This document shows, piece after piece, positions 28,991 through 57,356 of a DNA stretch of 64,000 nt; the stretch's first letter is position 1, and each line of letters begins with the position of its first letter. The stretch covers positions 124,001 to 188,000 of the forward strand of contig NZ_JAPVBH010000003.1 of assembly GCF_026967795.1 (NCBI RefSeq). The letters run 5' to 3'. The DNA comes from Modestobacter sp. VKM Ac-2986 (lineage in GTDB: Bacteria > Actinomycetota > Actinomycetes > Mycobacteriales > Geodermatophilaceae). The notes under the pieces were generated by a model. It made no database searches, was not told the DNA's origin, and saw only the letters and a program-made list of their open reading frames with translations. The position numbers and the translations under genes were made by a program.

Positions 28991-29005
28991 CCGTTATGCC
29001 CAACA
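28991..29005 (+). repeat. Terminus-oriented motif E1
   Basis: CCGTTATGCCCAACA on the plus strand, 13.4 kb left of dif and reading toward it. A weak ACGGGGGAAGGG block follows about 45 nt later. Confidence 0.6.
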
Positions 29006-29165
29006 CCCGCGCCGCACGACCCACCCGCGGTCCCCGACCACGGGGGAAGGGTCGCCAACCGGACACAGACGCACCACACACCCGCCGCGGGGACGGCGGC
29101 GCCGGTGGGGACGACGGCGCGGCGGCCTCCGGCGGGCTGGACAGGTGCCGGTCGGGAGTGCGCCG

Positions 29166-29171
29166 TACCGT
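29166..29171 (+). promoter_or_regulatory. Leaderless -10 box for the beta-phosphoglucomutase gene
   Basis: TACCGT, 7 nt (GACGCCC), then GTG 29179; this decides the start codon. Confidence 0.6.
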
Positions 29172-29178
29172 GACGCCC

Positions 29179-29910
29179 GTGCTGGGACTCCCCGAAGACA
29201 TCCGGGCCTGCTTGTTCGACCTCGACGGGGTCCTGACCCAGACCGCGAAGGTGCACCAGGCTGCCTGGAAGCGCACCTTCGACGAGTTCCTCCAGGGTCG
29301 GGACCCGTCGGCGGCCGAGTTCAGCGGCGACGACTACAACACCTACGTCGACGGCAAGCCGCGCAAGGACGGCGTCCGCGACTTCCTGGCCAGCCGGGGC
29401 ATCACCCTGCCCGAGGGCAGCGACGACGACCCGGCCGACGCCGCCACCGTGGCCGGTGTCTCGACCCGCAAGAACGTGCTGGTGCTGGCCGAGCTCGACG
29501 AGCACGGCGTCCAGGTCTACGAGGGCTCGATGCGCTACCTGCGGGCGGTCAAGGCCGCCGGCCTGGCCACCGCCGTGGTGACCGCCTCGGCCAACGGCGA
29601 GTCCGTCATCGCCGTCGCCGGTTTCGCCGACCTCATCGATGCCCGCGTCGACGGGCTGGTCGCCGCCGCCCAGGGGCTGCGCGGCAAGCCCGCGCCGGAC
29701 CCCTTCCTCGCCGGTGCCCGGGCGCTGGGCATGGAGCCCGCGCAGTGCGCGGTGTTCGAGGACGCGCTGTCGGGGGTCGAGGCCGGCCGGGCCGGGGACT
29801 TCGGCTTCGTCGTCGGTGTCGACCGGGTGGGTCAGGCCGAGGGCCTGCGCGAGCGCGGCGCCGACGTCGTCGTCACCGACCTCGACCAGCTGCTGGAGGC
29901 CCAGCAGTGA
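29179..29910 (+). CDS. Beta-phosphoglucomutase family HAD hydrolase
   Basis: This 243-residue HAD enzyme should convert beta-glucose 1-phosphate to glucose 6-phosphate. HAD motif I is [14 protein letters not shown] (about 12-25, nucleophile and acid/base Asp), motif [13 protein letters not shown], motif III near [17 protein letters not shown], and motif [14 protein letters not shown]. The helical cap covers about 25-95 ([37 protein letters not shown]). GTG 29179 begins [16 protein letters not shown]; earlier in-frame starts are unsupported. It overlaps the GH65 gene by 4 nt, giving the usual phosphorylase plus mutase pair. Confidence 0.93.
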
Positions 29911-32279
29911 CCGCCGGGCGCGCGCACTTCGTCGTCGAGCCCTGGTCGGTCACCGCCATCGGGCTGGACCTGGCCTCCCTCGGCGTCAACGAGTCGGTGT
30001 TCGCCCTGGCCAACGGGCACATCGGCATGCGGGGCACCTTCGAGGAGGGGGAGCCCGTCGTCGTCCCGGGCACCTACCTCAACGGCTTCTTCGAGGAGCG
30101 GCCGCTGCCCTACGCCGAGGCCGGCTACGGCTTCCCCGAGCAGGGGCAGACGGTCGTCAACGCCACCGACGGCAAGATCATCCGGCTGCTGGTGGGCGAC
30201 TCGCCCCTGGACCTGCAGTACGGCGACCTGATCGACCACCGCCGCACCCTGGACCTGCGCGACGGCGTGCTCCGGCGCACCACCGAGTGGCGCTCGCCCA
30301 GCGGCCGCCAGGTGCGGGTCACCAGCACCCGGCTGGTCTCCCTCACCCGCCGCTCCATCGCCGCCATCGAGTACACGGTCGAGTGCACCGACGACGCCGG
30401 TGACCTCTACATCGCCCTGCAGTCGGACCTGCTGGCCAACGAGGCCGTCTCCACCACCGAGAGCGACGACCCGCGGGCGGCCTCGGCCATGGACCGGCCG
30501 CTGGTCTCCGAGCTGCACGAGGGTTCCGGTCGGCACGCGGTGCTGGTGCACCAGACCCGCCGCAGCAAGCTGCGGATGGCCGCCGGGATGGACCACGAGG
30601 TGGAGATCCCGGACTCCGCGTCGGAGGAGCTCGAGGTGTCGCCGGACCTGGCGCGCTACCAGCTCGCCGCCCGGCTGCCGGCCGGCTCGAAGCTGCGGCT
30701 GGTCAAGTACCTGGCCTACGGCTGGTCCAGCCGGCGCTCCTCGGCCGCCATGCGCGACCAGGTGGAGGGCGCGCTGGCGACGGCGAAGCTGGCCGGCTGG
30801 GAGCGGCTGCTGCGCGAGCAGCGCGAGCTGCTGGACACCCACTGGGACGAGGCCGACGTCGAGATCGAGGGCGACGACGAGCTGCAGCAGGCCGTGCGGG
30901 TGGGCATGTTCCACGTCCTGCAGGCCGGGCTGCGCGCCGAGCGCCAGCCGATCCCGGCCAAGGGGCTCACCGGCGACGGCTACGACGGGCACACCTTCTG
31001 GGACACCGAGACCTACGTCCTCCCGGTGCTCACCTACACCGCCCCGCAGGCCGTGCGCGACGCGCTGCTGTGGCGGCACTCCATCCTCGACCAGGCCCGC
31101 GAGCGGGCCCGCGTCCTCGGCTTCGACGGCGCGGCCTTCCCGTGGCGCACCATCCGCGGGGAGGAGACCTCGGGGTACTGGCCGGCCGGGACGGCGGCGT
31201 TCCACATCAACGCCGACATCGCCGACGCCGTCGCCCGCTACACCGTGGCCACCCACGACGAGGTGTTCGACCGCGACTACGGCACCGAGCTGCTGGTGGA
31301 GACCGCCCGGCTGTGGAGCTCGCTGGGGCACTTCGACGGCGAGCAGAACTTCCGCATCGACGGCGTCACCGGGCCCGACGAGTACACCGCCGTGGTCGAC
31401 AACAACGTCTACACCAACCTGATGGCGCAGCGGAACCTGCGGGAGGCCGTCGCCGCGGTGGGCCGCAACCCCGACACGGCCGTGCGGCTGCAGGTGGGGG
31501 ACGACGAGGTCCAGCGGTGGTCCGCCGCGGCGGAGGCCATGCGGGTGCCGTTCAACAAGGCACTGGGCGTGCACGAGCAGTCCGAGGGGTTCACCCACCA
31601 CGAGGAGTGGGACTTCGCCGGCACCCGGGCCGACCAGTACCCGTTGCTGCTGAACTTCCCCTACTTCGACATCTACCGGAAGCAGGTCCTCAAGCAGGCC
31701 GACCTGGTGATGGCGCTGCACCTGCGCGGCGACGCGTTCACCCTCGAGGAGAAGATCGCCGACTTCGCCTACTACGAGGCGCGCACCGTGCGGGACTCCT
31801 CGCTGTCGGCCGCGGTCCAGGCGGTCGTGGCTGCCGAGACCGGGCACCTGCAGTTGGCCCACGACTACTGGGGCGAGGCGGCGCTGACGGACCTGCAGAA
31901 CCTGCACGGCAACAGCGGCCACGGCCTGCACATCGCCTCGCTGGCCGGCGGCTGGATGGTCGCCGTCGGCGGCTTCGGCGGGATGCGCGACCACGGCGGC
32001 AAGCTGGCCTTCGCCCCGCGGCTGCCCCCGCGGATCACCCGGCTCCGGTTCCGGATGGTCTTCCAGGGCCGCTGCCTGTCGGTCACGGTCACCCCGGAGC
32101 GGGCCACCTACCGGTTGGTCTACGGCGACGAGCCACTGGAGATCCACCACCACGGCCAGCAGGTGCTGGTCGCCCAGGACGGCGTCGACCTCCCGATCCC
32201 GGCGCCGCTGGACGTCGCCCCGGTGCACCAGCCGCCGAACGCCGCCCCCCGCCGCCGCAACCGCCCCACCAGCGACTGA
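29907..32279 (+). CDS. Glycoside hydrolase family 65 phosphorylase (trehalose/maltose-type)
   Basis: This 790-residue inverting disaccharide phosphorylase has an N-terminal beta-sandwich (about 1-270, SLGVNESVFALANGHIGMRGTFEEG), a linker and an (alpha/alpha)6 barrel (about 330-710). The general acid Glu lies in DGVTGPDEYTAVVDNNVYTN. KGLTGDGYDGHTFWDTETYVLP and the late NLHGNSGHGLHIASLAGGWM (phosphate and sugar site) are conserved. It releases beta-glucose 1-phosphate, which the coupled mutase converts to glucose 6-phosphate. Trehalose, maltose or kojibiose specificity cannot be told from sequence alone. A Pro/Arg-rich tail follows. Confidence 0.94.
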   Translation: MTAGRAHFVVEPWSVTAIGLDLASLGVNESVFALANGHIGMRGTFEEGEPVVVPGTYLNGFFEERPLPYAEAGYGFPEQGQTVVNATDGKIIRLLVGDSPLDLQYGDLIDHRRTLDLRDGVLRRTTEWRSPSGRQVRVTSTRLVSLTRRSIAAIEYTVECTDDAGDLYIALQSDLLANEAVSTTESDDPRAASAMDRPLVSELHEGSGRHAVLVHQTRRSKLRMAAGMDHEVEIPDSASEELEVSPDLARYQLAARLPAGSKLRLVKYLAYGWSSRRSSAAMRDQVEGALATAKLAGWERLLREQRELLDTHWDEADVEIEGDDELQQAVRVGMFHVLQAGLRAERQPIPAKGLTGDGYDGHTFWDTETYVLPVLTYTAPQAVRDALLWRHSILDQARERARVLGFDGAAFPWRTIRGEETSGYWPAGTAAFHINADIADAVARYTVATHDEVFDRDYGTELLVETARLWSSLGHFDGEQNFRIDGVTGPDEYTAVVDNNVYTNLMAQRNLREAVAAVGRNPDTAVRLQVGDDEVQRWSAAAEAMRVPFNKALGVHEQSEGFTHHEEWDFAGTRADQYPLLLNFPYFDIYRKQVLKQADLVMALHLRGDAFTLEEKIADFAYYEARTVRDSSLSAAVQAVVAAETGHLQLAHDYWGEAALTDLQNLHGNSGHGLHIASLAGGWMVAVGGFGGMRDHGGKLAFAPRLPPRITRLRFRMVFQGRCLSVTVTPERATYRLVYGDEPLEIHHHGQQVLVAQDGVDLPIPAPLDVAPVHQPPNAAPRRRNRPTSD

Positions 32280-32281
32280 GG

Positions 32282-32325
32282 GAGGACCCCCTCGCCCCCG
32301 TGCCACGCCCCACGCGGCACGGGGG
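32282..32325 (+). repeat. Post-stop palindromic element, copy e
   Basis: It starts 3 nt after the GH65 stop (GAGGACCCCCTCG). Hairpin arms CCCCCGTGCC (32295-32304) and GGCACGGGGG (32316-32325) make it a likely terminator. Confidence 0.7.
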
Positions 32326-32353
32326 CCGGGCCCTCGCAGGTCGGGGTGGGGCA

Positions 32354-32417
32354 TCGAGATCCGCGATCTCGTGGCCACCGGCGCCGGGAGGCCACGAGTT
32401 CGCAGATCTCGCGGTCG
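32354..32417. repeat. 64-bp inverted-repeat element, copy 1
   Basis: Arms CGAGATCCGCGATCTCGTGG (32355-32374) and CCACGAGTTCGCAGATCTCG (32392-32411) pair with few mismatches around CCACCGGCGCCGGGAGG. A direct second copy follows at 32491. Confidence 0.8.
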
Positions 32418-32490
32418 GTGACGCACTGTCGGCGTCGTCCCGCGGCAGGTCGTGCGTGGGGGCCGGGTCCTCGTCCGTCGGCGTCCAGCG

Positions 32491-32554
32491 TCGAGATCTG
32501 CGCTCTCGTGGCCACCGGCGCCGGGAGGTCCCGAGTTCGCGGATCTCGCGGTCG
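32491..32554. repeat. 64-bp inverted-repeat element, copy 2
   Basis: Same structure and orientation as copy 1: TCGAGATCTGCGCTCTCGTG, the same GGCCACCGGCGCCGGGAGG centre, and GAGTTCGCGGATCTCGCGG. The 73 bp between the copies are unrelated. Confidence 0.8.
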
Positions 32555-32652
32555 AGCGGGCGGCGCCCGGGCGTGGCGGGCCGGGCGGCCAACAGTGCGT
32601 GAACGGTCGGTGCAGCGCGTGTGCGCTGGTCACGACGGTGCACCATCCGGGC

Positions 32653-33939
32653 ATGACACAGCTCCCGCAGGTGCCGCTGAGCCGCCGGCGGTTCCTGGCA
32701 GCTGGAGCCGCCACCGGCGCGGCCGTCGTCCTCTCCGCCGCGGCCGGGGCGCCGCACGCACGCGCCGCCGGGCCGGGACCCCGGGTGTACGTGCTGGTCG
32801 TCGACGGCTGCCGGCCCGACGAGATCAGCCCGGTGCTCACCCCGCGGCTGGCCGCACTGCGCAGCGCCGGGACGACGTTCCCGCGGGCACGCTCGCTGCC
32901 GGTGATGGAGACGATCCCCAACCACACGATGATGATGACCGGGGTGCGCCCGGACCGGACCGGTGTGCCGAGCAACGCGGTGTTCGACCGGGCCGAGGGC
33001 GTCGTCCGTGACCTGGACCGGCCGAGCGACCTGCGCTTCCCGACCCTGCTCGAGCGGCTGCGGACCGGCGCCCGGACGACGGGCAGCGTGCTGAGCAAGG
33101 AGTACCTGTTCAGCGTCTTCGGCACCCGGGCCACCTACCGCTGGGAGCCCTTCCCGCTGCTGCCGGTCACCGACCACGCCCCCGACGCGGCCACCGTGGA
33201 CGCCCTCCTCGCCATGGTCGACGGCCCAGACCCCGACTTCGTGTTCACGAACCTCGGTGACGTCGACCGTTTCGGTCACGCCGACGTCACCGGCACCACG
33301 GTGCAGGCCGCCCGCCGGCTGGCGCTGGTCTCCACCGACCTGCAGGTGGGCCGGTTCGTCGACCACCTGCGCGCCACCGGCCGCTGGGAGCGCAGCGTGC
33401 TGCTGGTCCTGGCCGACCACTCGATGGACTTCTCCTTGCCCACCTCGACGATCTCGGTGAACCGGGTGCTGGCGCCGCGGCCGGACCTGCAGGCGGCGAT
33501 CACGATCGCCCAGAACGGCGGCGCCGACCTGCTGTACTGGACCGGGCCCGCCGCCCGCCGCAACGCCGGCCTGACCGAGGTGCGCCGGCTGGTGCAGGCC
33601 CACCCCGGGGTGCTGTCGGTGCACGTCCCCGGGTCGCTGCGGCTGGGTCCGGAGGCCGGGGACCTGCTGGCCTACGCCCGGCCCGGCTGGCGGTTCACCG
33701 ACCCCGAGCCGACCTCCAACCCGATCCCGGGCAACCACGGGCACCCGGTGACCGAGCCGATCCCGTTCTTCCTCTCCGGTGGGCACCCGGCGCTGCGGCG
33801 GGGCGTGAGCAGCGGCGCCCAGGCGCGCACGGTCGACGTGGCACCGACGGTGGGGGCGGTGTTCGGGCTGGCCGCGCCGGCCGGCGGCTACGACGGCGCC
33901 CCGCGGCGCGAGGCGTTCGTGTCGTTGCCGCTGCGCTGA
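32653..33939 (+). CDS. Tat-exported alkaline phosphatase/nucleotide pyrophosphatase-like protein
   Basis: This 428-residue protein has a twin-arginine signal (SRRRFLAAGAATGAAVV, residues 11-27). The mature part has the type I phosphodiesterase/pyrophosphatase fold: VYVLVVDGCRPDEIS (first metal Asp), LPVMETIPNHTMMMTGVRPDRTGVPSN (nucleophile Thr region), FTNLGDVDRFGHADVTG (Asp/His metal ligands), VLLVLADHSMDF (Asp-His) and NPIPGNHGHP (last His). It should hydrolyse a phosphodiester or phosphate ester outside the cytoplasm; the substrate is unknown. ATG 32653 is chosen for the Tat signal. Confidence 0.88.
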   Translation: MTQLPQVPLSRRRFLAAGAATGAAVVLSAAAGAPHARAAGPGPRVYVLVVDGCRPDEISPVLTPRLAALRSAGTTFPRARSLPVMETIPNHTMMMTGVRPDRTGVPSNAVFDRAEGVVRDLDRPSDLRFPTLLERLRTGARTTGSVLSKEYLFSVFGTRATYRWEPFPLLPVTDHAPDAATVDALLAMVDGPDPDFVFTNLGDVDRFGHADVTGTTVQAARRLALVSTDLQVGRFVDHLRATGRWERSVLLVLADHSMDFSLPTSTISVNRVLAPRPDLQAAITIAQNGGADLLYWTGPAARRNAGLTEVRRLVQAHPGVLSVHVPGSLRLGPEAGDLLAYARPGWRFTDPEPTSNPIPGNHGHPVTEPIPFFLSGGHPALRRGVSSGAQARTVDVAPTVGAVFGLAAPAGGYDGAPRREAFVSLPLR

Positions 33940-33945
33940 CCCGGG

Positions 33946-34674
33946 TCAGCCGGTCAGCGGGGCGACCAGCCAGGACGTCCCGAGCACCAGCGCGCCGCCG
34001 TCCACCAGCAGGAACAGCCCCACCCACAGCAGCCCCGGCAGCCGGGTGAGCCGGGCCAGCTGGTCGGCGTCGGAGTCCCGGGCCGTGCCCCGCCGCCGGG
34101 AGCGCTGCAGCTCCAGCACGGTGCGCGGGGCGGCCAGCAGCAGGAACCAGGTGACGCCGTGGGCGAAGGCGGCCTGCCCCGGGGCCGGCATCCACCAGGT
34201 GGCGGCGAACACCAGCGCCGCGGTGACCAGCACCGACCACAGCCCGTACCAGTTGCGGATCTGCACCAGCAGCAGCGCGAGCAGCAGCAGCAGCGCCCAC
34301 AGCAGGCCGACCGCGTACCCCGCGGCCAGCAGCGCGGCCGCCCCCAGCCCGAACAACCCCGGCCCGGTGTAGCCCGCCGCCGCGGTGAGCACCATCCCCG
34401 GGCCGGTGGGCCGCCCGGCCGACACGGTGACCCCCGAGGTGTCCGAGTGCAGCCGGATGCCCGACAGCCGGCGGCCGGTGACCAGCGCGGCCAGGCCGTG
34501 CGCGCCCTCGTGGGCGATCGTCACCGCGTGCCGGGAGGACCGCCACAGCGTCGGGGAGAGCACCAGCAGCGCAGCCAGCGCGGCGCTGAGCGCCAGCACC
34601 CACGCCGGCAGCGGGGGAGAGGTGGCGCTGACCCGGGTCCAGAACTCCTCGACGGCCGCCATGCCCCCGATCAT
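33946..34674 (-). CDS. M50 family (site-2-like) membrane metallopeptidase
   Basis: This 242-residue polytopic membrane protein has the zinc motif HEGAH in HAVTIAHEGAHGLAALVTGRRL (about 48-70) and about six hydrophobic segments. SGIRLHSDTSGVTVSAG and AAAGYTGPGLFGLGAAALLAAGYAVG follow as in short actinobacterial M50B-like proteins. These often lack a clear PDZ domain and have unknown substrates. ATG 34674 or 34662 are both possible; the second has GGGGG close upstream. It diverges from the monooxygenase-like gene. Confidence 0.82.
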   Translation of the reverse strand: MIGGMAAVEEFWTRVSATSPPLPAWVLALSAALAALLVLSPTLWRSSRHAVTIAHEGAHGLAALVTGRRLSGIRLHSDTSGVTVSAGRPTGPGMVLTAAAGYTGPGLFGLGAAALLAAGYAVGLLWALLLLLALLLVQIRNWYGLWSVLVTAALVFAATWWMPAPGQAAFAHGVTWFLLLAAPRTVLELQRSRRRGTARDSDADQLARLTRLPGLLWVGLFLLVDGGALVLGTSWLVAPLTG

Positions 34675-34759
34675 GACCAGCCCGGCTGTGCACGAGCCCG
34701 GCGGCGCGCGGGGGGACCGGGTTCGACGTCCCACCCAGTGGACCGCGATGCTGTGCCCC

Positions 34760-35377
34760 ATGGAGAGTGCTGCACCGGCACCCGCAGTACCGGAGACCCC
34801 GGAACTGCCGGTGACCGTCTCGTTCACGCGGCGCGCCGACCCGGCGCACGCGATGGAGATGACCGCCTGGATCCGGGCGGGGCTGACGATGGCCGAGGGC
34901 TTCCCCGGCTTCCTGGGGGGCGGCTGGGTCCGTCCCCGGCACGGCGCGGACGAGTGGCACATGCTGTGCCGGTTCGCCTCGCCGGCCACGCTCGCCACCT
35001 GGGAGGCGAGCTCCGAGCGCCGCTGGTGGCTCGGTTCGGCCCAGGGTCTGGCGGAGGTGACCCGCACCGAGCGGCGCACGGGCATCGAGGGCTGGTTCGA
35101 CGCCCCGGTCGACGCCGCCACGGAACTGCCGCCCGCCCCGGCGCCGCCGCCGCGGTGGAAGCAGGCCGTCACCATCTGGCTGGTCTTCTTCCCGCTCAAC
35201 CTGCTCGCCACGGTCACGCTCGGTGCGCTGCTGGCCGACGTGCACGTCGTGCTCCGGGTGGCAGCGATGACGTTGACCCTCACCCCGCTCATGACCTACC
35301 TGCTGCTGCCCTGGATGACCCGCCGTCTCGGCTGGTGGCTCCAGGGCCGCCGCTGGCGGGACCGCCGGCTCGCCTGA
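34760..35377 (+). CDS. Antibiotic-biosynthesis-monooxygenase-like protein with two C-terminal membrane segments
   Basis: This 205-residue protein has an ABM-type dimeric alpha/beta-barrel domain (about 15-110: VTVSFTRRADPAHAMEMTAWIRAGLTMAEGFPGFLGGGWVRP, WHMLCRFASPATLATWEASSERRWWL). Two membrane segments follow (about 138-190: VTIWLVFFPLNLLATVTLGALL, VVLRVAAMTLTLTPLMTYLLL) and a basic tail. The fusion is known from the family. Enzymatic function is unproven. ATG 34760 is tentative, with an in-frame ATG at 34748. Confidence 0.8.
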   Translation: MESAAPAPAVPETPELPVTVSFTRRADPAHAMEMTAWIRAGLTMAEGFPGFLGGGWVRPRHGADEWHMLCRFASPATLATWEASSERRWWLGSAQGLAEVTRTERRTGIEGWFDAPVDAATELPPAPAPPPRWKQAVTIWLVFFPLNLLATVTLGALLADVHVVLRVAAMTLTLTPLMTYLLLPWMTRRLGWWLQGRRWRDRRLA

Positions 35378-35438
35378 CGCCCGCCGGGGGCCGCGCACGC
35401 GACGCGGCCCCCGGCGGAGCGGCCCACCCGTCGTACGA

Positions 35439-35502
35439 CCGTTATCCCCAACAAGTGCGCCGCCGACCCGACAGGGAAGACCAGCAACGACAGGGGAGCG
35501 GC
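35439..35502 (+). repeat. Terminus-oriented element E2 (core plus second block)
   Basis: Core CCGTTATCCCCAACA at 35439-35453, then 20 nt, then GGGAAGACCAGCAACGAC and AGGGGAGCGGC (35474-35502). The second block is almost the same as in E7 at 57041-57070 on the other strand. It lies between converging genes, 7.0 kb left of dif. Confidence 0.7.
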
Positions 35503-35512
35503 CCCGGTCCGC

Positions 35513-36214
35513 TCAGACCAGGTCGGCGTCGTGCACCAGCAGCGCGATCTGCACCCGGTTGGCCAGCTCGAGCTTCACCATCAGCCGGGACACGTGCGCC
35601 TTCACCGTCGCCACGCTCAGGTACAGCTCCGCGCCGATCTGCGCGTTGGACAGCCCGCGGCCCACCGCCAGCGCCACGTCGCGCTCCCGCTCGCTGAGCG
35701 TCGCCAGCCGGTCCCGCGCCCGCTGCTGCCGCGCCTCACCCGGCGCCACCGCCCCCGCCGCCGACACGTGCGCGATCAGCCGCCGGGTCACGGTCGGTGA
35801 GAGCATCGGCTCCCCGTCGGCCACCCGGCGCACCGCGTCCACGATCGCCGCCGGCGGGGTGTCCTTGAGCAGGAACCCGCTCGCACCGGCCCGCAGTGCC
35901 CGCAGCACCTGGTCGTCGGCGTCGAAGGTGGTCAGCACGATCACCGCCGGGGCGTCGGGCGCGCTCATCAGCGCCTCGGTGGCGGTCAGCCCGTCGGTGC
36001 GCGGCATCCGGATGTCCATCAGCACGACGTCGGGCCGGGTGCGCGCCACCGCCGCCGGCACCTCGGCACCGTCGGCCGCCTCGCCCACCAGCTCCAGGCC
36101 CGCGGCCCCACCGAGCACCATCCCCAGCGCCGAGCGCACCAGGGCGTCGTCGTCCACCACGAGGACCCGGACCGGCCCGCTCGTGCCGGTCCCGCTCACG
36201 CCGATCTCGCTCAT
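35513..36214 (-). CDS. NarL/LuxR-type response regulator
   Basis: This 233-residue regulator has a receiver domain at about 16-130 (VRVLVVDDDALVRSALGMVL, phospho-acceptor Asp in PDVVLMDIRMPRTDGLTATEAL, Thr in IVLTTFDADD, Lys in GFLLKDTPP) and a LuxR helix-turn-helix at about 165-230 (LSERERDVALAVGRGLSNAQIGAELYLSVATVKAHVSRLMVKL). It overlaps the histidine kinase stop (ATGA), so the pair is one operon. The divergent ABC transporter downstream of the kinase promoter is a plausible target. Confidence 0.95.
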   Translation of the reverse strand: MSEIGVSGTGTSGPVRVLVVDDDALVRSALGMVLGGAAGLELVGEAADGAEVPAAVARTRPDVVLMDIRMPRTDGLTATEALMSAPDAPAVIVLTTFDADDQVLRALRAGASGFLLKDTPPAAIVDAVRRVADGEPMLSPTVTRRLIAHVSAAGAVAPGEARQQRARDRLATLSERERDVALAVGRGLSNAQIGAELYLSVATVKAHVSRLMVKLELANRVQIALLVHDADLV

Positions 36215-37455: not shown

Positions 37456-37462
37456 CTCGCCG

Positions 37463-37468
37463 AGGTTA
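37463..37468 (-). promoter_or_regulatory. Leaderless -10 box for the histidine kinase operon
   Basis: Minus-strand TAACCT, 7 nt (CGGCGAG), then GTG 37455. Confidence 0.6.
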
Positions 37469-37608
37469 CGGACGGCGGGAGGCCGCGGGTACCGACCGAA
37501 GTAGGGGGCCGGCGCGACCGGTGGCCCACCCGCCGGCGACCGAGGTGACCACGGCCGCCGCCTCCCGGGCGATGTGCGCGCCCCCGCCCGGCGGCCAGGC
37601 TCGTCGGC

Positions 37609-39371: not shown

Positions 39372-39386
39372 CCGTTATCCCCAACT
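39372..39386 (+). repeat. Terminus-oriented motif E3
   Basis: CCGTTATCCCCAACT, then AAGGAAAGCC about 20 nt on and CGGGGGAGC further on. It lies 3.05 kb left of dif. Confidence 0.65.
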
Positions 39387-39803: not shown

Positions 39804-39818
39804 CCGTTATCCCTAACA
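39804..39818 (+). repeat. Terminus-oriented motif E4
   Basis: CCGTTATCCCTAACA, followed by the A-rich ACAGACAAGAAAAACAAAAG. The core matches E5 on the other side of dif exactly. It lies 2.6 kb left of dif. Confidence 0.65.
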
Positions 39819-42411: not shown

Positions 42412-42439
42412 ACTTGACATAATGTCGATTATCGGCGCA
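42412..42439 (-). other. dif: dif site (XerC/XerD chromosome dimer resolution site)
   Basis: On the minus strand the 28 bp consist of a XerC-side arm TGCGCCGATAA, a 6-bp centre TCGACA and a XerD-side arm TTATGTCAAGT. The half-sites ATAA and TTAT form the usual partial palindrome. E. coli dif has the same layout (arms ending CGCATAA and starting TTATGTTAA), and the arms match the actinobacterial dif consensus as remembered, except for about two positions at the outer XerC end. A single copy was seen. It marks the replication terminus and the place where FtsK/XerCD resolve chromosome dimers. Confidence 0.9.
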
Positions 42440-48255: not shown

Positions 48256-48260
48256 CCGAC

Positions 48261-48298
48261 AGAACGGCCCCGGTGGGACCTCCCACCGGGGCCGTTCT
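48261..48298. terminator. Strong bidirectional terminator
   Basis: Perfect 18-bp arms AGAACGGCCCCGGTGGGA / TCCCACCGGGGCCGTTCT with a CC centre, between the converging rbpA and fxsA genes. Confidence 0.85.
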
Positions 48299-48316
48299 AC
48301 GTCTGGGGGTGCTCCG

Positions 48317-48829
48317 TCAGGGAGCGACCTCGCCCTCGATGACCCGGGTGGCCGGGCCGGCGCGGAAGGGCTCGGCCGGGCCGGTGACCGTCTCGGTGCG
48401 CACCGAGCGCACGTGCACCGGGCCGCGCAGCCGGTCGGGCAGGTTGCGCAGCAGCACCCGGCCGAGGACGGCCCGGGGCAGGGCGCGGGTGAACGGCAGC
48501 AGGCACAGCAGCCCGAGCAGGTCCCCGACGAAGCCCGGCAGCACCATCAGCAGCCCACCGAGGGCGACCAGCCCGGCGTCCCCCAGCGCGCGGCCAGGTG
48601 CCCGGTGCTCCTGCGCGCGCAGCCGCAGCTCCCCCAGCGCCGCCCGCCCCTGCCGGGCCAGCAGCGCGGCGCCCAGGGCGCTGGTGGCCAGGGTGGCGAG
48701 CAGCGTCCAGCCCAGCCCGATCCACGAGGCGACCAGGACGTAGACGACGACCTCGGCCAGCGCGCCGAGACCGATCAGCGTCCGCAGCCGGGACGGCCGG
48801 CGTCGGACCGGGGTGTAGGTGGTGGCCAT
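48317..48829 (-). CDS. fxsA: FxsA family membrane protein
   Basis: This 170-residue membrane protein has about three transmembrane segments (LIGLGALAEVVVYVLVASWIGLG, LLATLATSALGAALLAR, GLVALGGLLMVLPGFVGDLLGLLCLLPF). The signature GGLLMVLPGFVGDLLGLLCLLPFTR is typical of FxsA, first named for suppressing F-plasmid exclusion of phage T7. Cellular function is unknown. ATG 48829 is preceded by GGAGGAGG. It lies 120 nt downstream of lnt in the same direction. Confidence 0.93.
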   Translation of the reverse strand: MATTYTPVRRRPSRLRTLIGLGALAEVVVYVLVASWIGLGWTLLATLATSALGAALLARQGRAALGELRLRAQEHRAPGRALGDAGLVALGGLLMVLPGFVGDLLGLLCLLPFTRALPRAVLGRVLLRNLPDRLRGPVHVRSVRTETVTGPAEPFRAGPATRVIEGEVAP

Positions 48830-48949
48830 GCGTGTCCTCCTCCGCCCGCCGGGGAGCAGTGGACCTGCCTCCCGCACGGGATCGTCACCAGGTGCAACGA
48901 GCGGGACGGCGATCGTGCTCCCGCCGTCCGCTGCCGGCGTACCGGCGGG

Positions 48950-50545: not shown

Positions 50546-50658
50546 GCCCACCTCCTGCTCGTGTGGCCGGTCCGCGCTCGGACCGCCGCCGACCAGCATC
50601 CCACCCGCCGCGCCGTCCCCGGCCGACGTCCCGTCCCGGGTGCGGCGGCCGCCGGGCC

Positions 50659-52176
50659 TCAGGTGCCGGGCAGCAGCGGCTCGCCGGCCACCAGGAGCTG
50701 CCGGCAGGCCGGCCTGCCCCGCTCGGCCAGCACCGCGGACAGCGTCTGCCCCGTCGACCACAGGGCCAGGTCCGCGGGGGCGCCCACGGCCAGGGGGCCC
50801 TCCGGGTGCTCGGAGCGCGCGGCCGCCCACCCGCCGTGGGTGGCGGCGTCGAAGGCGTCGAAGGGCCGCATGCCCGAGCTGCGCGTGGTGTGGTCGACCG
50901 CGGCGTGCACCCCGCCCCAGGGGTCCAGCGGGGTCACCGGGGCGTCGCTGCCGAGCGCGACGGTCACGTCGGCGTCGACGAGGTCGGCCAGCGGGTTGAC
51001 CCCGGCCACCCGGTCGGCGCCCAGCCGCTCGGCGTACATCCGGGACGGCCCGCCCCAGGTGGCGTCGAAGGCGGGCTGGACGCTGGCGACCATGCCGAAG
51101 CGGCGCATCCGGTCGATGGCGGCCTCACCGACCATCTCCACGTGCTCCAGCCGGTGCCGGCAGGCCCGGACGGCGTCGCGACCCAGCTCCTCGACCACGG
51201 CGGCCACGGCGTGCAGCACCTGGTCGACGGCGGCGTCGCCGATGCAGTGGAAGCCGGCCTGCAGCCCGGCCGCGGTGCACGCCCGGACGTGCTCGACCAG
51301 CGACCCCAGCTCGAAGCGCAGCGACCCGGAGGTGTCCGGGCGGTCGGTGTAGGGCTGGGACAGCGCCGCGGTGTGCGAGCCCAGCGCCCCGTCGCAGAAC
51401 AGGTCGCCCCCGGCGCCGGTGAGCCCGAGCTCGCGGACGACGTCGAGCCCACCCCGCTCGGACAGCTCCCCCCAGTAGCCGACCACCCGCGGGCCCGGCG
51501 TCCCGGCGACCAGCTCGAGCAGCTCGGCGAGGTCGGTGGCGCTGGAGACCTCGGGGCCGGCCATCTCGTGCACCGTGCCGATGCCCAGGGCGGCCGCGGC
51601 GGCCAGGGTGGCGCGCTGGGCGGTGCGGCGCTGGTCGGCCGGCACCGAGCCGTAGGCGGCGTTGCGGGCCGCGGAGTGGGCGTCCAGCCGCAGCCGCCCG
51701 TCGGGGCTGTACCCGGGGAGGGCGGTGACGCCGGGGACCCGGTCCAGCAGGGCCGTGGAGACCGTGGCCGAGTGGACGTCGACCCGGGCCAGGTAGGCCG
51801 GCCGGTCCCCGACCACGGCGTCGAGGTCGGCGCGGGTCAGTCCGCGGCCCTCGGGCCAGTCGGTCTCGTCCCAGCCGGTGCCCAGCACGGTGCCGGTGGG
51901 TGCGGCCGCCGTCTGGGCGGCCAGCAGCGCGACGGCGTCCCGCAGGCTGGCCGCGGGGTGCAGGTCCAGGCCGGTCAGCGCCAGTCCGGTGGCCGTGGCG
52001 TGCACGTGGGCGTCGACGAACGCCGGGGTGAGCAGCGCGCCCGCGCCGTCGAGGAGCCGGTCGGCGGGCGGGGCGTCGGCGGCGGCACCCACCCAGCTGA
52101 TCCGTCCCGCCTCGACGTGCACCGCCCGGCCGGGGCGGTCCCCGACGGTGACGTCGGTGACGAGCAGCCCGCTCAC
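50659..52176 (-). CDS. Amidohydrolase family protein (YtcJ-like)
   Basis: This 505-residue metal-dependent hydrolase of the amidohydrolase-3 group has metal ligands in FVDAHVHATATGLALTGLDL (about 55), a His in LQAGFHCIGDAAVDQVLHAV, another in RHRLEHVEMV and the Asp in VTVALGSDAPVTPLDPWGGVHAAV. Family members hydrolyse exocyclic amide or formamide bonds. The substrate is unknown, but translational coupling to the 3,5-diaminohexanoate dehydrogenase (GTGA overlap) suggests a link to amino acid degradation. GTG 52176. Confidence 0.9.
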   Translation of the reverse strand: MSGLLVTDVTVGDRPGRAVHVEAGRISWVGAAADAPPADRLLDGAGALLTPAFVDAHVHATATGLALTGLDLHPAASLRDAVALLAAQTAAAPTGTVLGTGWDETDWPEGRGLTRADLDAVVGDRPAYLARVDVHSATVSTALLDRVPGVTALPGYSPDGRLRLDAHSAARNAAYGSVPADQRRTAQRATLAAAAALGIGTVHEMAGPEVSSATDLAELLELVAGTPGPRVVGYWGELSERGGLDVVRELGLTGAGGDLFCDGALGSHTAALSQPYTDRPDTSGSLRFELGSLVEHVRACTAAGLQAGFHCIGDAAVDQVLHAVAAVVEELGRDAVRACRHRLEHVEMVGEAAIDRMRRFGMVASVQPAFDATWGGPSRMYAERLGADRVAGVNPLADLVDADVTVALGSDAPVTPLDPWGGVHAAVDHTTRSSGMRPFDAFDAATHGGWAAARSEHPEGPLAVGAPADLALWSTGQTLSAVLAERGRPACRQLLVAGEPLLPGT

Positions 52177-53192
52177 CGCGCCGTCCGCGCGTCGACCATC
52201 GCCTGCACGCCCGGCGTCCGCCGGTACAGGTCCAGGGCCAGGGCCGCGTGCCCCGGCGTGTAGCCGTTGCCAACCAGCATCGTCACGTCCGTCGCCATCC
52301 CCTCGGCTGCTCCGGCCGCCGCCTGACTGGCGGGAGCCGGGGAGAAGAAGACCACGGTGCCCCCGTCGGCCGTCGTGAGGACCGCGGCCTGCTCGGCGCC
52401 GGGGGCGTCGACGCAGACGACGGTGACGTCGACCGGCTCCCCGACGGCGGCGGCGACGGCCAGCGGGTCGGTGGTGTCGGCGACCACCACGGTGTCGGCG
52501 AGCCGGGCCGCGCGGAGCTCGGCGGCGTCGGCCTCGGTGGTCACCACGCCCACCAGCCGGCCGGCGCGGGCGTCCCGGGCGGCGGCCAGGCTCAGGCACC
52601 CGGCCCGGCCGGCAGCACCCAGGACGGCGACGGAGGGACGGTGCCCCGACCGGTGCACGACGCGCTCGGTGGCCGCCGGGGCGCCGCAGACCTCCAGCAC
52701 CGCCAGGGCCGTCTCCTGGGGCAGGTCCTCGGGCAGGACGGCGGCGATCGAGCGGGCGAACAGCACCGCCGTCCCCGTCGTCGGCACGTGCCGGCTGACG
52801 CCGTCCCAGGAGGCCAGGCCGTCGGTGACCCGCAGCGGCACGCCTGTCAGCGGGACGAGCGTGGCCACCCGCTGCCCGGCCTGCAGGCCCAGCGGTGAGT
52901 CCAGGCCGGCCTCGTCCACGACGCCCACGACCATGCCGCGGGGGCCGAGGTCGAGCTTGCCGTCGCGTTCGATGCCGGCCAGGACGGCGGCCCGCACCGC
53001 GGCGCCGTCGGCACCGTGCTCGCGGGGGTCCCAGGTCGCGGCGTCGAGGTCGATGCGGTGCACGTCGACCCGCACCTCGTCCGGGGCGAGCCGGGGATCG
53101 GCGTCCAGCCGCCGGGCCGCTGCGGGGAGCACCCCGACCGGGTCGAGCGCCCGGTGCACGCCCAGGCTGCGGTGCAGCACGCTGTCGAGCAC
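52173..53192 (-). CDS. kdd: L-erythro-3,5-diaminohexanoate dehydrogenase
   Basis: This 339-residue NAD(P)-dependent enzyme of lysine fermentation oxidatively deaminates 3,5-diaminohexanoate. Recognition rests on the family N-terminus (LDSVLHRSLGVHRALDPVGVLPAAARRLD), RVDVHRIDLDAATW, LGPRGMVVGVVDEAGLDSPLGLQAGQRVATLVPLTGVPL, the Rossmann SVAVLGAAGRAGCLSLAAA and a late VVFFSPAPASQAAAGAAEGMATDVTMLVGNGYTPGHA. GTG 53192 follows GGAGGG 7 nt upstream. The other lysine fermentation genes (kamA, kamDE, kce, kal) are not in the window. Confidence 0.85.
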   Translation of the reverse strand: MLDSVLHRSLGVHRALDPVGVLPAAARRLDADPRLAPDEVRVDVHRIDLDAATWDPREHGADGAAVRAAVLAGIERDGKLDLGPRGMVVGVVDEAGLDSPLGLQAGQRVATLVPLTGVPLRVTDGLASWDGVSRHVPTTGTAVLFARSIAAVLPEDLPQETALAVLEVCGAPAATERVVHRSGHRPSVAVLGAAGRAGCLSLAAARDARAGRLVGVVTTEADAAELRAARLADTVVVADTTDPLAVAAAVGEPVDVTVVCVDAPGAEQAAVLTTADGGTVVFFSPAPASQAAAGAAEGMATDVTMLVGNGYTPGHAALALDLYRRTPGVQAMVDARTAR

Positions 53193-53286
53193 GTGGAGTC
53201 CCTCCGTCGTCCCGGGCCCGCGCCCGGGGTGCCCATCGTCCCCGAGCGCGCGTTTCCCCGCGGCCGGACGGCGGTAGCTCTCCCGG

Positions 53287-53799
53287 GTGGAGCTGCTGTG
53301 CACCGACCGGCTGCGACTGCGGGCCTGGACCACCGCGCCCGCCGACCTCGACCGGCTGGCCGACGTCTACGGCCGCGACGAGGTGACCCGCTGGCTCGGT
53401 GGTCCGCCCACCGTGCCGCCCGCGGAGCTGGTCGAGCGCTGGCGGCTCGTGCACGAGCTGAACCCGGTGCACGGCTGCTGGGCCCTCGACCGGCTCGACG
53501 GCGGGCCACCGGCGGGCACGGTGCTGCTCAAGCCGTTGCCCAACGGGGTCGGGGAGGTCGAGGTCGGCTGGCACCTGCACCCGGACAGCTGGGGCCACGG
53601 CTATGCCACCGAGGCCGCGCGGGCGGTCGTCGACCGGGCCTTCGACGAGGGGCTGCTGGAGGTCTACGCCGTGGTCCGGCCGGGCAACGAGCCCTCGCTG
53701 GCGGTGTGCCGGCGGCTGGGGATGCAGCCGCTGGGCCGCACCTCCCACTGGTACGGGACGGAGCTGGAGTCCTTCCGGCTCGAGGCGCCGACGGCCTGA
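53287..53799 (+). CDS. GNAT family N-acetyltransferase (RimJ/RimL type)
   Basis: This 170-residue protein has the acetyltransferase-3 pattern: ELLCTDRLRLRAWTTAPADLDRLADVYGRDEVTRWLGG, then GEVEVGWHLHPDSWGHGYATEAARAVVDRAFDEGLLEVYAVVRPGNEPSLAVCRRLGM with the acetyl-CoA loop at WGHGYATEA (about 105). RimJ/RimL-type enzymes acetylate N-terminal or other amines; the substrate is unknown. It starts at GTG 53287 after a TAGCTC box 6 nt upstream, possibly leaderless. It is 10 nt from the next gene. Confidence 0.92.
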   Translation: MELLCTDRLRLRAWTTAPADLDRLADVYGRDEVTRWLGGPPTVPPAELVERWRLVHELNPVHGCWALDRLDGGPPAGTVLLKPLPNGVGEVEVGWHLHPDSWGHGYATEAARAVVDRAFDEGLLEVYAVVRPGNEPSLAVCRRLGMQPLGRTSHWYGTELESFRLEAPTA

Positions 53800-53809
53800 G
53801 GAGGACGCC

Positions 53810-55234
53810 GTGGACTGGTTCTCCGACCCGGGCGCCTGGGCCGGCCGGCTGCTGTTCACCCGCGGCCTGGCGCTGGTCTACCTGCTGGCCTTCGTCGCCG
53901 CACTGCGGCAGGCTCCGGCGCTGATCGGCACCCACGGCCTGACGCCCGTGCCCCGGTTCCTGCGCGCCACGTCCTGGCGCACCGCGCCGAGCCTGTTCCG
54001 ACTGCGGTTCTCCGACCGGCTGCTGAGCGCCGTCTGCTGGACCGGGATCGTCCTGTCGGCCGCGACGCTCGCCGGTTTCGCCGACCGGCTGCCCATCGCC
54101 GGGTGGATGGCGCTGTGGGCGGTGCTGTGGGCGCTCTACCTGTCGATCGTCAACGTCGGGCAGATCTGGTACGGCTTCGGCTGGGAGTCGCTGCTGCTCG
54201 AAGCCGGGTTCCTCGCCGTCTTCCTGGGGCCGGCGCACGTCGCGCCCCCCACGTTGGGCATCTGGCTGCTGCGCTGGCTGCTGTTCCGGCTCGAGTTCGG
54301 CGCCGGGCTGATCAAGATGCGCGGCGACCGGTGCTGGCGCGACCTGACCTGCCTGGCCTACCACCACGAGACCCAGCCGATGCCCAACCCGCTGAGCTGG
54401 TGGTTCCACCGGCTCAGCCCGCGGTTGCACAAGGTGGAGACGCTGGCGAACCACGGCACCCAGCTGGTGGTCGTGTGGGGCCTGCTGCTGCCCCAGCCGA
54501 TCTGCGGGATCGCGGCCGCCGTCATGGTGGTCACCCAGGGCTACCTGTTGATCAGCGGCAACTTCGCCTGGCTCAACGCGCTCACCCTGGTCCTCGGCCT
54601 GTCGCTGCTCGACGGGCGGTGGCTGCCGTTCGACCGGCCCGCGGAGCTGTCGTCGCCCACCTGGTTCACCGTGGTCGGCATCGTCGTGGCCGCCGGGGTG
54701 GCGGTGTTGAGCATCGGCCCGGTGCGCAACCTGCTCTCGCCCCAGCAGCAGATGAACACCAGCTTCGACCCGTTCCGGCTGGTCAACAGCTACGGGGCGT
54801 TCGGGTCGGTCAGCAAGGTGCGCCGTGAGCTGGTCGTCGAGGCCACCGATTCCCTCGGACCGGACGCCGAGTGGCGGGAGTACGAGTTCCGCGGCAAGCC
54901 CGGCGACGTGCACCGCCGCCCGCCGCAGTGGGCGCCCTATCACCTGAGGCTGGACTGGCTGATGTGGTTCGTGGCGCTCTCACCGGCCTACGGCCGGACC
55001 TGGCTGGTGCCGTTCCTGGGCAGGCTGCTGGCCGCGGACCCGGCCACGCTGCGGCTGCTCCGGTCCGCGCCGTTCGGCAGCGACCGGCCGGCCGCCGTCC
55101 GGGTGCTGGTCTACCGCTACCGGTTCACCACCCGCGCCGAGCGGCGGGCGACCGGCGCGTTCTGGCACCGCACCCACGAACGGGAGCTGGTCGGCCCGCT
55201 CACCCCCGATGACGTCGGCCAGCGGGTGCGCTGA
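53810..55234 (+). CDS. Lipase maturation factor family membrane protein
   Basis: This 474-residue polytopic membrane protein resembles LMF1, the ER factor for lipase folding. It has about eight membrane segments. The family motifs are QAPALIGTHGLTPVPRFL, FGWESLLLEAGFLAVFLG, LLFRLEFGAGLIKMRGDRCWRDLTCLAYHHETQPMPNPLSWWFH, the conserved SFDPFRLVNSYGAFGSVSKVRRELVVEATD and WREYEFRGKPGDVHRRPPQWAPYHLRLDWLMWF. The bacterial role is unknown. GTG 53810 is set by GAGGAGG 5 nt upstream. It probably shares a transcript with the GNAT gene. Confidence 0.93.
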   Translation: MDWFSDPGAWAGRLLFTRGLALVYLLAFVAALRQAPALIGTHGLTPVPRFLRATSWRTAPSLFRLRFSDRLLSAVCWTGIVLSAATLAGFADRLPIAGWMALWAVLWALYLSIVNVGQIWYGFGWESLLLEAGFLAVFLGPAHVAPPTLGIWLLRWLLFRLEFGAGLIKMRGDRCWRDLTCLAYHHETQPMPNPLSWWFHRLSPRLHKVETLANHGTQLVVVWGLLLPQPICGIAAAVMVVTQGYLLISGNFAWLNALTLVLGLSLLDGRWLPFDRPAELSSPTWFTVVGIVVAAGVAVLSIGPVRNLLSPQQQMNTSFDPFRLVNSYGAFGSVSKVRRELVVEATDSLGPDAEWREYEFRGKPGDVHRRPPQWAPYHLRLDWLMWFVALSPAYGRTWLVPFLGRLLAADPATLRLLRSAPFGSDRPAAVRVLVYRYRFTTRAERRATGAFWHRTHERELVGPLTPDDVGQRVR

Positions 55235-55241
55235 GCGCCCG

Positions 55242-56102
55242 TCAGCGGCGGGTCAGCCGGGTGCGGACCCGGGCCACCCGCCCCACCTTCGGGACGACGA
55301 CCCGGTGGCCGGCGGCGTTCCGGTCGTCCAGCACCGCGGCCACCTCCGGGGTCGGGGCGGTGCCCCCCAGGTGCGCGGGCAGCCACCAGCGGTCGTCGGC
55401 GCCGGCGGGCTGGTCGGGGTAGGTGCGCTGTGCCTCCTCGACCAGGGTCTCGATCGCCGCCTTGGTGCGACGGAGCACGGCCTGCACCTTCTCCCCCGGC
55501 TCGGGCACGATCGGCTCGCCGATGATCACGGTGACCGGCACGTCCCGGCGGAACCGGACCTTCTGCCGCTTCGTGGCGATCCGCTGACCGCCCCAGACGG
55601 CTGCCGGCAGGATCGGCACGCCCGCGTCGACGGCCATCCGGGCTGCGCCGGCCTTGAGCTGCTTGACGACGAACGAGCTGCTGATGGTGGCCTCGGGGAA
55701 GACGCCGATGACGTGGCCGTCCTTCAGCGACGCCACGGCCGCCTCGAAGGCGGCGGTGCCGGCCGCGCGGTCGACCGGGATGTGCTGCATGGCGCGCATG
55801 AACGGGCCGGAGAACCAGTGGCCGAACACCGAGGCCTTGGCCATGAACCGGACCAGCCGGTGCTGGGGCAGCGCAGCCAGCCCGAGGAAGGTGAAGTCCA
55901 GGAAGCTGACGTGGTTGCTGCAGATGATCGCGCCCCCGCTGGTGGGCACGTGCTCCTGGCCGCGGACGTCGAACCGGAAGCGGAAGAGCCGGAAGACGAT
56001 CAACGCGACCCGGATGACGAATCGGTACGGGCGGTCGCGCGGGTCCGGGTGCGCGCCGAACAGGTCGCGGCGGACGACGTCACCCCAGCTGGCCGTGTAC
56101 AT
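55242..56102 (-). CDS. Lysophospholipid acyltransferase (PlsC-like)
   Basis: This 286-residue acyltransferase has a membrane-anchoring helix (FVIRVALIVFRLFRFRFDV), motif I SNHVSFLDFTFLG (NHxxxxD, about 63), motif II MQHIPVDRAAGT, motif III IGVFPEATISSSF and motif IV VPILPAAVWGGQR. It probably acylates lysophosphatidate. The ATG at 56102 is chosen because a TAGGGT box lies 8 nt upstream (near-leaderless); the open frame continues upstream into repeat-containing non-coding DNA. It converges on the lipase maturation factor gene, 7 nt away. Confidence 0.92.
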   Translation of the reverse strand: MYTASWGDVVRRDLFGAHPDPRDRPYRFVIRVALIVFRLFRFRFDVRGQEHVPTSGGAIICSNHVSFLDFTFLGLAALPQHRLVRFMAKASVFGHWFSGPFMRAMQHIPVDRAAGTAAFEAAVASLKDGHVIGVFPEATISSSFVVKQLKAGAARMAVDAGVPILPAAVWGGQRIATKRQKVRFRRDVPVTVIIGEPIVPEPGEKVQAVLRRTKAAIETLVEEAQRTYPDQPAGADDRWWLPAHLGGTAPTPEVAAVLDDRNAAGHRVVVPKVGRVARVRTRLTRR

Positions 56103-56235
56103 GACAGCGGACCCTAGCCAACGCCGCAGGTGGCCGTGCCGTGCGTCCTCCAGCTGACATTCGAGGCGGCGCCTGACCCGTCGCCTCGGTTGGTTGGAGC
56201 GGTCTTTGTCTTTCCTGTGCATTGACGATGTGGTT

Positions 56236-56250
56236 TGTTAGGGATAACGG
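56236..56250 (-). repeat. Terminus-oriented motif E5
   Basis: Minus-strand CCGTTATCCCTAACA, the same core as E4, followed by an A-rich ACAGGAAAGACAAAGACC block. It lies 13.8 kb right of dif and points toward it. Confidence 0.65.
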
Positions 56251-56540
56251 TGCAAGTGTCCGGGGCGGCTGCGAAGAGGGGTTCGACGCAGTCGCCGACC
56301 AGGACATCGGCAGATCTGCTCACCATCCGACCCTCCCTCGGCCGACCGGTGAGCTGGGCACGAGGCGCTGCCGCCGCCCGGCTGGGCGACTCGACGGTGG
56401 CCGTGCGCAGGCGGTGTCCCCTGTGGTGGAGCAGCCGGCCTGGCCAGCCCACGCACGCCCCCGCCCTCGGCCGGCGTTCGGCCCCTGCCCTGCCGCCCAC
56501 GCCCCGGGCGTCGTCCTGCGAGTCCGAGGGCCCGTCGACG

Positions 56541-56651
56541 CCTCAGAGCCCCCTGGCCTCAGAGCCCCTGACCTCAGAGCCCCTGACCTCAGAGCCCCTG
56601 ACCTCAGAGCCCCTGACCTCAGAGCCCCTGACCTCAGAGCCCTTGGGGTCC
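56541..56651. repeat. 15-bp tandem repeat (minisatellite), seven units
   Basis: CCTCAGAGCCCCTGA occurs as five near-exact consecutive copies (from 56557), with variant first (56541) and last (56632) copies. It lies in non-coding DNA. Confidence 0.9.
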
Positions 56652-56769
56652 AAGTCCCTGACAGCCGGTCCCCGCTCGTGGCGGCCGAACGATGGGAGGT
56701 GGCGGTTGCTGCGTCGGCGCCCGTAGGGCGCCGCTGTGCGACGCGACCACCGGTGTGATGGGTCCCTGT

Positions 56770-56784
56770 TGTTGTGCATAACGG
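56770..56784 (-). repeat. Terminus-oriented motif E6
   Basis: Minus-strand CCGTTATGCACAACA, a diverged copy sharing GTTATG with E1. It lies 14.35 kb right of dif. Confidence 0.5.
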
Positions 56785-57040
56785 CGCAGAAGGGCTTGTT
56801 CGTGGGCGTTCTCCCCGAGTCGACTCACTCATGCCGGCGGACCAGCCGGAACGGGTCGGGGTCCTCTCCTGCCTCATCGCGGCTGGTCCGCCTCTGTCGA
56901 TGTGACGCTTCGCCGACGACTGCCCTGCGTTCGACCTCCCGGCAGCTGACTGACCGGCCCCGGGACCCTCACTCCCCCGCGCTCGTCTTGGGGTCCCGAC
57001 CCGGCGGCGCCTTCCCCACTCGGCGGCGGACGACCCGGGA

Positions 57041-57104
57041 GCCGCTCCCCCGTCGTTGCTCGGTCTTCCCTACCGCGTTCGCGGCGGACAGTTGGGGATA
57101 ACGG
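57041..57104 (-). repeat. Terminus-oriented element E7 (core plus second block)
   Basis: Minus-strand core CCGTTATCCCCAACT (57104-57090), then 19 nt, then GGGAAGACCGAGCAACGAC and GGGGGAGCGGC (57070-57041). The two-block layout and sequence match E2, which is in the opposite orientation across dif. Confidence 0.7.
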
Positions 57105-57341
57105 ACAACCGAAGCGGCGAGGCGATCAGGTGCGCCGCGGATGTCGACCGGTCCGTGACCGCAGGAGCGGGTACGGCTGTCGTCGTCCCGTGTCGTACGG
57201 GCTCTGCGGCGGCTCGCTGATCGCGAGCGTGCCACCCCTCGGACCCGTGGAAGACCAGCGACCCCGGTGCGAGGTGCTCAGTGGTCGGTCCGCCACCCAC
57301 TCCCCCGGCGAGCGGTCTGCGCCGGCGTGTATCGGGCCGGT

Positions 57342-57356
57342 AGTTGGGGATAACGG
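57342..57356 (-). repeat. Terminus-oriented motif E8, inside the promoter of the next gene
   Basis: Minus-strand CCGTTATCCCCAACT, directly abutting the TATGAT -10 box at 57357-57362, so it fills the spacer between -10 and any -35. Confidence 0.65.

Follow-up and report, generated by a model that had tools for sequence, protein, structure and literature searches.

The terminus region of Modestobacter sp. VKM Ac-2986 raises the question of what a short asymmetric motif, CCGTTATSCMYAACW, does on the two sides of dif, the site of XerCD. In the 64,000-nucleotide stretch analyzed here, hereafter the window (contig NZ_JAPVBH010000003.1, positions 124,001 to 188,000), the initial annotation had placed eight copies of this 15-mer, each reading toward dif, and had proposed several roles: a Ter-like fork trap, FtsK-orienting sites, a mobile element, or a small RNA or promoter family. 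All eight copies (E1 to E8 from left to right) are confirmed at their positions and on their strands. The role that fits best is the first of these, a replication fork trap, to which we assign a probability of roughly three in four. A gene that the annotation had missed, at 57369–58223 beside E8, would encode the terminator protein.

The motif is rare and its family is sharply bounded. No match to the 15-mer appears in any of 100 shuffled versions of the window, and a search of the window at one to two mismatches yields no further copies. Exact copies number 11 in the host genome (4.19 Mb in 15 contigs), eight of them in the window. Two others lie on the same contig, the nearer 14 kb past the right end of the window and the other 378 kb to the right of dif, and both are on the minus strand, facing inward as the orientation rule predicts; the eleventh is on a different contig of uncertain placement. 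The reversed pattern, which served as a control, has no match in this genome. The sharp boundary follows from the near matches: at up to two mismatches the motif gains six scattered matches, no more than the seven of the reversed control. The positions that flank the core show a weaker preference, for W-C-N-A ahead of it and for A behind it; the core letters themselves were preset by the search pattern.

The same arrangement is found across the family Geodermatophilaceae. The 15-mer is present in 23/23 genomes of the genus and in 94 of 112 family genomes, at 1–11 exact copies per positive genome, and the reversed control is absent from all 112. It occurs in eight of the 12 genera; of the four that lack it, the best sampled (g9) is represented by eight near-complete genomes. 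The identification of dif, on which the scoring of direction depends, is sound, with one copy per genome in 23/23 genomes of the genus, and of its 28 bases the window copy shares all but four with the dif of Frankia alni given in PMC3025954. A total of 386 exact sites were placed in the 94 genomes, 47 of them on contigs with no located dif, which are unscored for direction and distance (in genomes G060 and G107 no dif was found; for G010, the contig was wrapped at a rounded length). Random orientation, the lack of a flip at dif, and equal density far from the terminus or in genes, the outcomes that the initial annotation had set against its own proposal, are not what is observed. On all 83 contigs that carry both orientations there is a single, inward-facing switch from plus to minus, and 331 of the 339 sites on dif-bearing contigs point at dif, with eight exceptions, all of them in one genus. 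The innermost pair encloses dif in 68 of 76 contigs. The sites are clustered at a median distance of 16 kb from dif, with 332/339 at 100 kb or less, and the far sites (>60 kb; 66–603 kb from dif) are inward in 12/12 cases. Under independent random orientation, the summed log10 P for convergence is about -62, a figure that ignores kinship and overstates the case because related genomes are not independent. Even so, the sequence around the sites varies widely, and every contig able to show the rule obeys it. The terminus-polarized family is real, and its support among relatives is far stronger than the window alone had indicated. Beyond the family the motif fades into background: a class-wide scan of 394 genomes with a slightly looser 14-mer gives a match in 21, and among the 392 genomes from outside the family 19 match with one copy each, compared with 22 that match the control.

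The sites are tied to a single gene. The start codon of the gene at 57369–58223 is 12 bp away from E8, and site and gene have opposite orientations. Relatives of this gene, sought with two peptide patterns in 84,980 species, each represented by a single genome, were found at 76 loci. These are recorded under the names Modestobacter, Blastococcus, Geodermatophilus, Trujillonella (all Geodermatophilaceae), or Geodermatophilaceae bacterium, with two exceptions: a "Frankiales bacterium" and a "Bacillus sp. AZ43". The record bearing the latter title (SPQJ01000009.1) carries the gene together with a facing site pair and looks mislabeled. In 76/76 relatives, a site with 0–2 mismatches from CCGTTATCCCCAACA/T is positioned 4–15 nt from the start codon, and the spacing is exactly 12 nt in 62 of them. 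For each gene, the first in-frame ATG, GTG, or TTG downstream of the site was used as the start codon, a rule that favors short gaps but does not produce the constant 12-nt gap. A TAnnnT box follows on the gene strand within 0–2 nt of the site in 69/76 relatives, and the start codon usually stands about 6 nt beyond it, a spacing that suggests a leaderless transcript. Because the site adjoins a −10-like box, its occupation would block the promoter, and autorepression is expected from the way in which E8 abuts the box of its own gene.

The presence of the gene follows that of the motif. Of the 112 family genomes, 93 have the gene, and these belong to the same eight of 12 genera; 92 of them give a single match, and in G039 the match is split into two adjacent pieces (C2:58827-59664); the sole discordant genome, G014, which is 72% complete, has the motif and no gene. 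Where gene and dif share a contig, the gene is on the same side of dif in 80/80 genomes, 7.2–23.5 kb off, and reads away from dif in each. A protein profile run against 394 genomes of the class matched only the two family members among them. The window protein is 97% identical to its counterpart in Modestobacter muralis. One locus, L175 (Blastococcus sp. TML/M2B), has a frame of 390 residues rather than the usual length of about 280–290. An acyltransferase gene beside E5 (55242–56102) had been considered as the partner of the sites and was dropped once the gene at 57369 proved linked.

What kind of protein the gene encodes is seen in predicted structure rather than in sequence families. The window protein has no family in Pfam (E ≤ 10), PHROGs, or NCBIfam. 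Among 16 members of the protein family, only two Pfam families are matched, each by a single member (E 0.34 and 0.36), and Tus is not one of them; the Pfam scan of the window protein and these members gives no RTP; the best PHROGs match is isolated and weak (E 0.028), NCBIfam has none, and a sequence search of the PDB reaches E 0.69 at best. Models predicted with moderate confidence adopt a tyrosine-recombinase fold comprising a core-binding and a catalytic domain, for which the closest solved folds are those of Cre, XerH, XerA, and XerD. The fold matches include the solved XerD–FtsK complex 5dcf and SroF of phi3T, titled a phage repressor; Tus and RTP are not among them, which is uninformative by itself. 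A search of the host genome with the tyrosine recombinase family PF00589 finds four genes other than 57369–58223, and a profile comparison with the host XerC and XerD, a weak one with only two template sequences, gives no signal.

The catalytic residues of 59 proteins were placed by their spacing against host XerD, with no structural alignment. By this placement Arg I and the Lys are present in 0/59, whereas His II is found in all 59, Arg II in 46, and the Tyr in 48; at the His/Trp III position, His is found in one protein, and none of the 56 proteins with a listed residue has Trp. The window protein itself keeps His II, Arg II, His III, and the Tyr and is without Arg I and the Lys. Judged by these residues, the active site is degenerate. 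From its predicted fold, the product is probably a DNA-binding protein. In fold it would resemble the Xer recombinases named above, from which it differs in its degenerate active site and in having sites that are not at dif.

A recombinase-like fold could also be the legacy of an integrase relative, with the sites left over from a mobile or recombination element, either att-like sites or a strand-biased transposon. Besides the predicted fold, the sites are short and repeated, and some have a common downstream block, as such an origin would have it. Yet the flanks differ from site to site, 136 non-promoter sites falling into 132 groups at 70% identity, and the equivalents of Arg I and Lys are missing throughout. 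No relatives of the protein were found in plasmids or phages (tblastn) or in IMG/VR (peptide patterns), and the constant place of the gene relative to dif in 80/80 genomes is not that of a mobile element. We regard this origin as very improbable, and the mobile-element role suggested earlier has no support in the flanks. The small-RNA role fares likewise, with no Rfam family in the window at gathering score.

A second use of such a fold is as a repressor. In the portion of PMC10516654 used here, MrpR (also compared as MrpR/YopR of SPbeta) has a tyrosine-recombinase fold and acts as a DNA-binding protein with no recombination. By analogy, the protein could be an autoregulated transcription regulator with a small regulon near dif, and the site that adjoins the −10-like box of the gene that encodes it, as well as the frequent retention of the promoter pair alone in the genus g3, probably a part of Blastococcus, would suit this role. 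The placement of the other sites does not. All 48 sites in 13 terminus regions (the window and 12 relatives, including two g9 regions with no site) are intergenic, in DNA of which only 13.5% is intergenic by gene calls from a simple codon-position GC score; this bears out the earlier description of the copies as non-coding. Of the 48, 13 are between convergent genes, a place where neither promoter nor operator is expected. The orientation also tracks the replichore hundreds of kilobases away (12/12), and nothing in a regulon would make its sites converge on a single point, as they do in 83/83 contigs. MrpR and SroF, moreover, are prophage repressors, for which that portion of PMC10516654 mentions no chromosome terminus, polar sites, or link to replication. 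A regulator of this kind is therefore an improbable explanation of the sites as a whole.

For the fork trap, binding of the site by the protein, a polar fork block, and self-repression are inferred from the observed geometry and linkage. The 284-residue protein, probably a C-shaped clamp with the tyrosine-recombinase fold and no remaining ability to cut DNA, would bind the asymmetric 15-nt site. When a fork moves along the arrow of the motif, entering at its CCG end on the way to dif, the bound protein would let the replisome pass; a fork that leaves the terminus and reaches the AAC end would have its replisome stopped. Sites on either side of dif would in this way admit forks and bar their exit, and at E8, beside the −10-like box, the bound protein would repress its own gene. 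GC skew around dif in the 13 regions is too weak and noisy to mark a fork-meeting point.

A polar sequence oriented to the terminus is also the hallmark of the KOPS that guide FtsK (PMC2680272), a likeness that calls for a distinction between two layers of polar sequence in this DNA. A search for strand-skewed words in 0.8 Mb of arm DNA from two g3 genomes singles out the heptamer GGGGGAG, with 225 copies on one strand versus 16 on the other. The most likely point at which its polarity switches is within about 2.2 kb of dif in 13/13 terminus regions, and within 1 kb in 12; the switch is near dif where the trap is wide, where the site pair is 19.5 kb away, and in the two g9 genomes that lack the system. 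GGGGGAG is a candidate KOPS-type guide of FtsK. The 15-mer differs in being separate from and much rarer than this heptamer. It was considered as a KOPS and rejected: it has 1–11 copies per genome, clustered at the terminus, and is not frequent along the arms, as GGGGGAG is. Of the suggestion that the copies orient FtsK, then, the role fits the heptamer and does not hold for the 15-mer.

The two layers meet in the "second block" that had been described as common to E2 and E7. The block exists, though as an optional rather than a general feature; where present, it is a module about 20–50 nt 3′ of the site, of the form GGGAAGACC..AGCAACGAC..GGGGAG. Within 75 nt after the core, GGGAAG is found at 21 of 132 non-promoter sites versus 1.8% of random intergenic 75-nt stretches drawn from the 13 terminus regions, and GGGGAG at 40 of 132 versus 7.8%, with sites near stretch ends excluded from the counts; GGGGAG follows only two of 45 promoter sites. 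The GGGGAG of the block belongs to the GGGGGAG layer, to which the 15-mer does not. The block is nevertheless more than that layer, as both GGGAAG and GGGGAG are enriched after the core.

These observations bear on a further alternative, in which the protein marks the dif region for segregation, orienting an FtsK or SMC motor or anchoring the terminus, with no arrest of forks. The clustering of the sites at dif (median 16 kb on dif contigs) and their direction are what such a marker would show, and the match of the predicted fold to Xer and Cre proteins, including the XerD–FtsK complex, points the same way. The denser GGGGGAG layer, however, already fits the orientation of FtsK in 13/13 regions, including the two without the system. 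This alternative is unlikely, if less so than the transcription regulator.

In the genus g3 the geometry is compact. Across the family, the innermost exact copies are 138 bp to 85 kb apart; these widths count exact copies only, and an inner variant copy, such as the one that G009 and G004 each have at the gene, would narrow them. In g3 a second site faces the one at the gene, with 144–150 bp between them, and dif is 19–23 kb outside the pair in 8/8 scored contigs; a similar dyad, 138 bp wide, is present in G083, a genome of another genus (g4). The eight sites that point away from dif in the family-wide count are all partners in such dyads. Two aspects of this arrangement qualify the case for a fork trap: dif is not inside the pair in any of the eight scored g3 contigs, whereas the literature places dif inside the E. 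coli trap, and a purely autoregulatory pair of sites would have the same appearance. On the other side, the convergent geometry is kept even where dif is not at its center, and a convergent dyad fits what opposed barriers need. The partner that points away from dif also suits opposed forks better than it suits a dif guide, which tells against the segregation alternative. The arrangement suggests that the trap of Blastococcus has shrunk to a dyad of about 150 bp at the promoter of the terminator gene itself, about 20 kb from dif. If so, forks in this genus would meet at one point apart from the point of dimer resolution and FtsK convergence.

The proposed trap shares its layout with the known systems. 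According to PMC6549158, two unrelated fork-trap systems had so far been described, and the accessible text of a 2026 paper, PMC12809603, names only those two. As in the Tus–Ter system of Enterobacterales and others, a few asymmetric sites face inward around dif, with one in the terminator promoter; according to PMC10331603, both tus and rtp are autoregulated through a ter site in their own promoter. The narrower traps with the gene-side site innermost resemble type I, a narrow trap with the innermost Ter beside tus (PMC8707476, section 2.4), and the restriction to certain clades is likewise a feature of Tus–Ter in the available part of PMC6549158. Unlike Tus–Ter, the present system has another site sequence, a protein with no Tus match in Pfam and a predicted tyrosine-recombinase fold, a home in Actinomycetota, and no plasmid relatives found. 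Membership in Tus–Ter was rejected on the site: the Ter consensus AGNATGTTGTAAYKAA (PMC3317982) is not matched, and CCGTTATCCCCAACW fits the motif on neither strand by eye. On the gene strand, the site at 57342–57362 contains TGTTG...TAAC, like the E. coli consensus but with extra bases between, probably by coincidence.

With the RTP–Ter system of Bacillus, the sites share inward clusters near the terminus and an autoregulated adjoining gene, as far as partial sources on RTP describe them. In contrast to that system, there is no RTP match in Pfam and no repeated half-site in the motif. RTP binds as a dimer on A and B half-sites according to the same partial sources, and one may speculate that the optional downstream block acts like the second of these. 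In the best reading, the trap is homologous to neither Tus–Ter nor RTP–Ter and is a third, unrelated one.

Sites of matS/MatP are palindromic and free of orientation. That system was ruled out by the asymmetry and fixed orientation of the motif and by the lack of a Pfam match.

The broadest form of the proposal, that a recombinase-like protein with no cutting chemistry has become a one-way replisome barrier, that this is the third independently evolved trap and by our searches the first in Actinomycetota, and that it is reduced to a dyad in Blastococcus, is tentative, and we place it somewhat short of even odds. No paper on this system was found in a search that lacked most subscription journals and bioRxiv preprints. 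If the fork trap is real, it would be a new polar DNA roadblock for research on replication and would assign a role to a protein that none of Pfam, PHROGs, and NCBIfam places in a family. That traps whose effects are subtle should be so strictly conserved is presented as a paradox in the accessible text of PMC12809603, and a third origin with another fold would make that paradox directly testable. A natural comparison exists within one family, with eight genera that have the system and four that do not. The Blastococcus dyad, the recombinase-like protein, and the clean pattern of presence and absence make this an unusually testable system. The features of the window are collected in Table 1.

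Table 1. Polar sites, dif, and the candidate terminator gene in the window (positions in the window, 5′ to 3′ on the forward strand)
Feature	Position	Strand	Remark
Polar site E1 (CCGTTATGCCCAACA)	28991..29005	+	points at dif
Polar site E2	35439..35453	+	optional second block after it, about 35474-35502
Polar site E3	39372..39386	+	between convergent genes
Polar site E4	39804..39818	+	innermost left, between convergent genes, ~2.6 kb from dif
dif (XerCD site)	42412..42439	+	single copy, inside putative trap
Polar site E5	56236..56250	-	innermost right
Polar site E6, variant CCGTTATGCACAACA	56770..56784	-	
Polar site E7	57090..57104	-	optional second block after it
Polar site E8	57342..57356	-	presumed promoter of candidate terminator gene, 12 bp from start codon
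TATGAT, −10-like box adjoining E8	57357..57362	+	read from sequence
Candidate terminator protein gene	57369..58223	+	284 aa, without Pfam, PHROGs, or NCBIfam family

Two further features were observed near these sites. The gap between E5 and E6 contains a tandem array at 56541–56642, composed of 6.7 copies of the 15-bp unit CCTCAGAGCCCCTGA with 97% matches. Inside the putative trap, 53810–55234 encodes a bacterial member of the lipase maturation factor family (LMF1, E 4.6e-59).

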